Positions 34,416 through 35,493 of a stretch of 64,000 bases of DNA are shown here, one piece after another. Location: the NCBI RefSeq assembly GCF_030845995.1, contig NZ_CP132719.1, forward strand, positions 2,108,001 through 2,172,000, given 5' to 3'. Each line of letters opens with the position of its first letter. Position 1 is the first letter of the stretch. The position numbers and the translations under genes are program-made. The DNA is from Geothrix sp. 21YS21S-4. Its GTDB lineage: Bacteria; Acidobacteriota; Holophagae; Holophagales; Holophagaceae. A model generated the notes under the pieces. That model did not search any database and was not told where the DNA came from. It saw nothing but the letters and a program-made list of their open reading frames with translations.

Positions 34416-34670
34416 ATGGACCTCGACGCCTTCCTGCGCGACGTGCTCACGCCCCTGCTGGACCATCCGGAGGCCCTCCGGATCGAAGTGGGCGGCGAGG
34501 GGAAGAAGCGGGACGTGCTCCTCTTCGCCAATCCCGAAGACCGGGGCCGGATCATCGGCAAGCACGGGCGGATGATCTCCGCCCTGCGGACGCTCTGCCG
34601 GACCGCCGGCGACAAGGCCGGCCTGGCCGTCACCCTGGAGTTGGACGACCGGGACGAGCAGGAGGCTTAG
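34416..34670 (+). CDS. khpA: KH domain RNA-binding protein (KhpA-like)
   Basis: An 84-residue single KH-domain protein. The GxxG nucleic-acid loop is intact (GRIIGKHGRMISALRTL). KhpA homologues bind many RNAs and, with KhpB, affect cell division in Gram-positives. The ancestral stop codon was probably TAA directly abutting the rimM ATG; it now reads TAG from the inserted element. A Shine-Dalgarno-like GGAG precedes the ATG. Confidence 0.92.
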   Translation: MDLDAFLRDVLTPLLDHPEALRIEVGGEGKKRDVLLFANPEDRGRIIGKHGRMISALRTLCRTAGDKAGLAVTLELDDRDEQEA

Positions 34671-34940
34671 GAGCGCGTCCAATTAATCGATAGGGGCTGC
34701 ATTGATGGCAAAGGGCGTTCAGGCAAGGAAGCGGGCGCAGGGCGGTGGGGAGCCACCGTTCAAGACCGATGACGCAGCATGGATGCCCTTTGCCATCAAC
34801 CCTTCGGGCAGAGGCGACAGCCGTCGGGATGCTGCGTCAAGCTCCTCGTCGATAGTCCCGCTATCGCCTTCGTCGCTTTCCTTGCCTCCCTCGGCTGGCA
34901 CCTCTGTGCAGCCCCCACCCATTACTTGGAGGCGCTCCTA
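34668..34940. mobile_element. MITE-like structured element with terminal inverted repeats and TA target duplication
   Basis: The ends form 34-bp terminal inverted repeats (34668-34701 and 34907-34940) that match at 29 positions: TAGGAGCGC-TCCAA-TAAT...GGGGCTGCA. TA flanks both ends, as with IS630/Tc1-mariner-type transposition. Inside are further nested palindromes: a perfect 15-bp pair TTGATGGCAAAGGGC / GCCCTTTGCCATCAA (34702-34716, 34785-34799) and a 10-bp pair GACGCAGCAT / ATGCTGCGTC (34771-34780, 34829-34838). No transposase is encoded, so it would need one in trans. Removing the element and one TA rebuilds khpA-TAA-ATG-rimM with AGGAGG 5 nt before the ATG. Confidence 0.75.
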
Positions 34941-34941
34941 A

Positions 34942-35493
34942 ATGCTTCTGGCGGGTCATCTCGCGAAGGTGCAGGGCCTCAAGGGCGAGTTCCTTTTCCA
35001 CGCGGTCATGGACAATCCCGAGCGCCTGGAGGGGCTGAAGGATCTGATCCTGGCTCCGCCGCACATGGACCTGGACCGCAACGAATCCATCCCTCCGGCC
35101 CGGCCGGCGGCGCTGCGGAGCTTCCGGTGGCACCAGGAGCGTCCCTGCCTCGCTTTCGAAGGCGTCCCCGACCGCACCGCCGCGGAGGCCCTGAAGGGCT
35201 GGGCGCTGTGGATGCCCGAATCCGCGGCCTCCCTGGAGGAAGGCGAGAGCTTCCGCCACCAGTGGATCGGCTGCGAAGTCTTCATGGGCGGGCGCAAAGT
35301 CGGTGAGGTGCTGCGCCTCGACCCCGGCCCCGCCGGCTACGACATGGTGGTGATGCGGGACCTCCGCCCGGGCCGGACGGGCCAGCGGGACATCCCCTAT
35401 ATCAAGGCCTGGTGGACCCTCGACCTCCCCCATCGCCGGCTGGATGTGGATCCCCCCGAGGGGCTGCTGGACGTCAACCAGATCGGCGGCTGA
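34942..35493 (+). CDS. rimM: Ribosome maturation factor RimM
   Basis: RimM binds S19 and helps mature the 30S head domain. The 183-residue product begins LLAGHLAKVQGLKGEFLF (the RimM GxI.kaHGlkGe pattern) and carries the C-terminal PRC-barrel region (GCEVFMGGRKVGEVLRLDPGPAGYDMVV partly quoted: GRKVGEVLRLDPGPAGYDMVV region). The Shine-Dalgarno GGAGG, 9 nt before the ATG, lies entirely in the right terminal repeat of the preceding insertion. trmD and rplS, normally next, are not found downstream. Confidence 0.9.
   Translation: MLLAGHLAKVQGLKGEFLFHAVMDNPERLEGLKDLILAPPHMDLDRNESIPPARPAALRSFRWHQERPCLAFEGVPDRTAAEALKGWALWMPESAASLEEGESFRHQWIGCEVFMGGRKVGEVLRLDPGPAGYDMVVMRDLRPGRTGQRDIPYIKAWWTLDLPHRRLDVDPPEGLLDVNQIGG

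Follow-up and report, generated by a model that had tools for sequence, protein, structure and literature searches.

A MITE with IS1182-type ends at the khpA-rimM junction of Geothrix and the enrichment of Shine-Dalgarno-like ends beside start codons

How can a gene be translated after a mobile element has separated it from its ribosome-binding site? This question is raised by khpA and rimM in the window, namely the whole stretch of 64,000 nucleotides analysed here, where an element lies between the two genes and the native AGGAGG in the 3' end of khpA is now about 275 nt away from rimM (Table 1). The S16 gene upstream of khpA scored well over the cut-off of its model, and rimM was found in 44 of 47 genomes of the genus. 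It is well established that transposon ends can donate promoters and terminators; the signal considered here is a Shine-Dalgarno (SD) sequence.

In a preliminary description, an element was placed between the SD and the start codon of rimM at 34660-34944. The element is present, but these limits were a few bases too wide on each side (34668-34940), and the inserted DNA between the two TAs is 34670-34938. The inverted ends, given as 34 bp before, comprise 35 nt (34667-34701 and 34907-34941) with 86% complementarity, and the described TA at both borders was found at 34668-34669 and 34939-34940. The right border reads CTCCTA, followed by a single A and the rimM ATG. The nested palindromes are also present, with a single-strand fold of -86.4 kcal/mol (z -6.7) that was equalled by none of 100 shuffles. 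The Rfam covariance-model search of the element returned chance-level matches only (E 2.9 or worse) and the search of the window at gathering score returned only a tRNA, so a known structured RNA was rejected as its identity. By ORF inspection, the window copy has no transposase-sized frame. The element is short, without transposase and present in dispersed copies, with inverted ends, a target duplication and ends shared with insertion sequences (IS), and is a MITE.

Table 1. Coordinates of the features at the khpA-rimM junction (positions in the window)
Feature	Position	Strand	Basis
khpA (KH-domain RNA-binding protein), stop TAG	34416..34670	+	NCBIfam KH-domain/RNA-binding models, below curated cut-off
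Displaced native SD AGGAGG, in khpA 3' end	34660..34665	+	Anti-SD pairing -10.3 kcal/mol; directly before rimM in empty relatives
MITE with A-type ends, 273 bp with both TAs counted	34668..34940	+	Inverted ends, repeat copies
Left TA (target duplication), within former khpA TAA stop	34668..34669	.	Sequence, empty relatives
Left terminal inverted repeat, GGAGCGCGTCCAATTAATCG...	34670..34701	+	Matches ends of IS1182-family IS in L260/L273
First internal palindromic arm (TTGATGGCAAAGGGC...GCCCTTTGCCATCAA)	34702..34799	+	Repeat and fold analysis
Second internal palindromic arm; core in common with B-type elements	34806..34906	+	Fold, core comparison
Right terminal inverted repeat, ending CTTGGAGGCGCTCC	34907..34938	+	Inverted-repeat analysis
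Candidate replacement SD GGAGG, 9 nt ahead of ATG	34928..34932	+	Anti-SD pairing; genus-wide enrichment
Right TA (target duplication)	34939..34940	.	Sequence
rimM, ribosome maturation factor	34942..35493	+	TIGR02273 64.4 bits, just below cut-off 66.2

The ends of the window element match those of complete IS1182-family elements in two genomes of the same genus at 18 of 20 bases. The first, of 1541 bp (G051, L260), has the ends TAGGAGCCTGTCCAAGTAAA and TAGGAGCCTGTCCAAGTAAC flanking a 445-aa transposase, while the second, of 1478 bp (G054, L273), has nearly the same ends and also a 445-aa transposase. The L260 transposase scored 382.7 bits with the NCBIfam IS1182 model NF033551 (cut-off 270) and contains the domains DUF772, DDE_Tnp_1 and DDE_Tnp_1_6. 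Because of this match the window element was assigned as an IS1182-type MITE, a non-autonomous transposon with ends of the kind recognised by IS1182-type transposases, and its mobilisation by such an enzyme is putative. Like IS1182-family ISs and MITEs, it has terminal repeats TAGGAGC[C/G]TGTCCAAGTAA and a TA/CTAG target, and a complete IS with a DUF772 and DDE_Tnp_1 transposase exists in the same genus. Unlike those ISs, it has no transposase, its inner 200+ bp are unmatched inside the complete ISs, and most of its core is in common with elements having IS5-type ends. The core as an IS remnant was rejected, since no match was found inside IS loci. In the own genome no match was obtained to PF13340, PF13358 or PF01609, the three transposase models searched, so the copies there look immobile now. 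The other type of end seen in the genus (B, TAGGGYCTGTTTTCAAARTGG) agrees with that of an IS5-family element of 865 bp, of which G020 has about ten copies.

Removal of the insert in silico with one TA kept gave GCAGGAGGCT-TAA-ATG with AGGAGG 5 nt before the ATG, as had been proposed, and exactly this empty junction (GACGAGCAGGAGGCT-TAA-ATG) is carried by a relative (G010, L108). The present 3' end of khpA is GAG-GCT-TAG (34668-34670), in which TA comes from the old stop and G is the first base of the element, confirming the element-derived TAG; since the element begins with G, insertion in either TAA or TAG leaves TAG. Toward rimM, the GGAGG attributed to the right end of the element was found where it had been described, with pairing energies to the anti-SD of -9.3 kcal/mol for this GGAGG, -10.3 for the old AGGAGG of khpA and -3.0 for the family consensus end, which has GGACACG at this position. 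The left end of the window copy matches the SD change incompletely. The expected empty junctions were seen in 40 of the 44 genomes with a readable rimM, where rimM follows at once or a few bases after the khpA stop; the locus is therefore not the same in all relatives. Besides the window, insertions were found in three genomes (G015, G042 and G054). A related element of B type, with GAAGG in its rimM-side end, is common to G015 and G042 (sister copies of 256 and 273 bp; L102, L118), and G054 has 165 nt between khpA and rimM, ending GAAGGCAGGTCCTGA-ATG, which look like a decayed B-type copy. This junction therefore received two or more separate insertions, of differing element types.

Additional copies lie in the single 3.08-Mb contig of the own genome, one at 88105-88377 (91%) and another, split in two by an internal insert, at 1429489-1429821 (95% over both parts), together with more diverged ones. 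Matches were found in 20 of 41 genomes of the relatives set, own genome included, every one of the same genus, while 16 genomes of other genera in the class had none; a genus-wide search gave matches in 36 of 47 genomes. The exact end of 20 bases was found in records of Geothrix, Holophagaceae or Acidobacteria genomes. In this survey, the repeat family is confined to one genus (Geothrix/Holophagaceae), within which the copies predicted elsewhere in the genome and in relatives are many. A and B types together made 132 unique insertions, commonly 273 bp, and have a common core (74% over about 210 bp) with ends from different IS families. When three MITE types were compared, two with IS1182-like ends and one with IS5 ends (window:34702-34906, L143:1501-1774, L073:1501-1775), a core of 200+ bp showed 66-74% identity. 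A palindromic insert of about 40-80 bp, resembling a nested repeat, lies inside the core in both end types (L063:1501-1815, L228, L240, L056, L009). At L226, L075, L096, L172 and L086 only an end-to-end palindrome of 57-62 bp was observed, in which the two terminal repeats are almost directly joined. A 166-bp element with these ends is present in an IMG/VR viral contig (L251:4408-4573) and is a possible vehicle between hosts.

Sites occupied in more than one genome were compared with a test in which the match of either flank sufficed. Same-family element pairs at shared sites were 89-97% identical and their flanks 82-96%, values that constraint, gene conversion or repeated insertion could each explain. 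The shared-site pairs L342/L350 and L322/L323 are not mutual nearest relatives in the tree. One site (L071/L044), not called as start-abutting, was hit in two species by different element subtypes.

As a measure of SD strength, the energy of pairing between the anti-SD and every element end was calculated. A neighbouring gene start was accepted where a frame was open over 70 or more codons and had coding-type GC by codon position, a criterion independent of the SD, of annotation and of expression data. An end was regarded as abutting when an ATG lay 0-8 nt from the TA, and as SD-like at a duplex energy of -4.5 kcal/mol or lower, a cut-off picked after the data were seen and not used in the rank tests. 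When each set of orthologous sites was given a single count, 13 of 24 independent ATG-abutting ends were SD-like, against 13 of 208 in elements abutting no start (odds ratio 18, p 2e-8). The threshold-free Mann-Whitney comparison of abutting with other ends gave p 0.004 for A ends and p 8e-7 for B ends; the enrichment is thus seen in both end types, which belong to different IS families. The excess was confined to start distances of 0-5 nt, and no comparable excess was observed at 6-12, 13-30 or 31-120 nt. The A-end changes are from TTGGACACG to TTGGAGGCG, TTGGAGGCA, TTGGAGACA or TTGGAGAGC, and the B-end changes from TTGAAAACAG to TTGAAGGCAG or TTGAAGGGAG. The genes downstream of abutting ends include rimM, ftsW/rodA-like, nusB, lipA, hisG, asparagine synthase, fmt, DedA/UptA-like and others. 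The old SD is often still visible in the flank upstream of abutting elements (mean -5.8 vs -3.8 elsewhere, p 0.002). In the own genome, the A-type copy at C1:1429489-1429821 (L009) exactly fills the junction of a glmM-like with an ftsW/rodA-like gene and repeats the TTGGAGG-9 nt-ATG arrangement seen before rimM. That the MITE separates the native SD from rimM and supplies a replacement was the central claim of the preliminary description, and the replacement, as a predicted signal, is supported statistically over many independent insertions. An SD at usable distance from a start and enriched over other copies supports an exapted translation signal, for which use by ribosomes is predicted. Across the genus, reuse as a ribosome-binding site appears statistically well supported; at rimM it is plausible.

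Overall, we consider it probable that a MITE with IS1182-type ends displaced the rimM SD and that selection provided a new one. The TA of the TAA that ended khpA would have served as the target of the element, with khpA keeping an in-frame TAG through the first element base, G. The insertion would have shifted the SD in the last khpA codons by about 270 nt from rimM, and this displacement would have been the trigger for selection on rimM translation to keep or create GGAGG in the right terminal repeat. A repair of the same kind would recur in the genus, where start-adjacent terminal repeats have SDs and others generally do not. In its broadest form, the proposal is that MITEs with two unrelated end types repeatedly enter stop-start junctions, often the stop codon, and cut off the ribosome-binding site of the downstream gene, whereupon a terminal repeat is converted to a new one, often with the partner repeat in step, which would keep the two transposon ends matched, in a recurrent and convergent manner; this generalisation could equally turn out right or wrong.

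The strongest competitor, which we regard as possible though less probable, holds that GGAGG arose incidentally as an end variant in a mobile subfamily and that insertions which happened to bring an SD survived, by filtering of arrivals instead of evolution in place. The window and ftsW-side copies share GGAGG and are sisters in the tree (support 0.87), so they may share one GGAGG origin, and most SD-type elements have the matching change at both ends. Both ends scored the same for SD in 23 of 32 comparable elements, and an SD-like score was also obtained for 12 of the 28 ends lying opposite in abutting elements; SD formation is therefore not confined to the useful end, and since both ends usually score alike, it is in most cases the inverted repeat as a whole that has changed. 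Such a paired change could come from an old end variant surviving where useful, from arm-from-arm correction of the palindrome or from fold selection. Against the filtering of arrivals, SD-type ends are very rare in elements abutting no start, as counted above, and several variants (GAAGGGAGG, GAAGGCAGG and GGAGAC) occur at different loci on separate tree branches.

Long-range translational coupling, in which the fold would join the khpA stop and the rimM start at the hairpin base and a terminating ribosome would open the stem and free the SD, seems unlikely. The very stable fold does have stop and start at its base; when it is unconstrained, the SD is paired to the left repeat, and the matching changes keep the stem. 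However, G-U did not exceed A-C on the sense strand, either in the terminal stem of abutting elements (42 vs 48 cells) or in the shared family structure (47 vs 59); since an excess of G-U is expected if the fold is selected, RNA-level selection on the hairpin was not supported and was rejected. Concerted variation is seen at 35 of 61 base pairs of the shared structure, each of which shows at least two Watson-Crick types; this agrees with maintenance of the structure as DNA. In B-type elements across the genus, at fixed element orientation, one strand folds better (mean -182.9 vs -178.3 kcal/mol, p 2e-5), but no G-U/A-C asymmetry accompanies this. In the folding model the new SD is paired inside the terminal-repeat stem and most of its bases remain paired with the left arm blocked. 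Opening of the stem by the ribosome was not upheld as a coupling route, as static folding did not cleanly free the SD, and for this reason a link to termination on khpA is no more than possible.

It is similarly doubtful that the MITE is inert, with rimM translated by re-initiation, by leaderless initiation or at a low level and GGAGG present by chance; about half of the ATG-abutting ends have no clear or strong SD, which speaks for it, but the enrichment beside starts is strong in two unrelated end types. The TA target duplication would also suit the IS630/Tc1-type MITE expected at first, a highly improbable origin which was rejected because transposases of the IS630 type (DDE_3) were found in only a few genomes of the genus, in no case with these ends, and gave no match in the own genome, and because the ends (TAGGAGCGTGTCCAAGTAAT) match the IS1182-family element instead.

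TA was present at both borders in 88 of the 132 unique insertions, with CTAG as the commonest target context (56 of these 88) and TTAA the next. An in-frame gene ends at the TAG of the element in 72 of 129 usable insertions, and genes end there from both sides in 12. The pooled control CTAG sites were at an in-frame stop in 28 of 134 (2 from both sides; p 7e-9 against the insertions), while the window alone gave 11 of 23. Because of the latter value, the stop-codon excess may mostly follow from the CTAG preference and the loss of intragenic or damaging insertions, and stop-codon targeting beyond site preference was not upheld.

Among known systems, the pneumococcal RUP (107 bp) likewise is a short, TA-inserting MITE with inverted ends shared with the IS proposed as its mobiliser; unlike the window element, it is linked to IS630-Spn1, and no supply of an SD is described in the available part of the source (PMC2229807). 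BOX elements of pneumococcus resemble the window element in encoding the stop codon at gene 3' ends, in 36 cases, whereas the tested BOX-encoded frames were without good SD candidates and recurrent SD formation is not among the findings in the accessible sections of that report (PMC3049150). The MITE-like ERIC/RU-1 elements of enterobacteria are cotranscribed between genes and affect the flanking mRNA; the reported effect is on transcript stability, in contrast to the supply of a ribosome-binding site proposed for the window element (PMC2229807). A review of prokaryotic MITEs contains no mention of Shine-Dalgarno, ribosome or stop codon (PMC10969869). In the open-access literature (subscription papers being outside the scope), no precedent was found for recurrent SD formation in MITE ends.

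In conclusion, with the TA of a stop codon as target and a G as the first element base, termination of the upstream gene is preserved, and the cost falls on the downstream gene. The sequences suggest how this cost was repaired, and about a dozen further insertions of related bacteria apparently underwent the same repair. The family would thus offer about two dozen independent natural replicates of the rebuilding of a ribosome-binding site inside core-gene operons.
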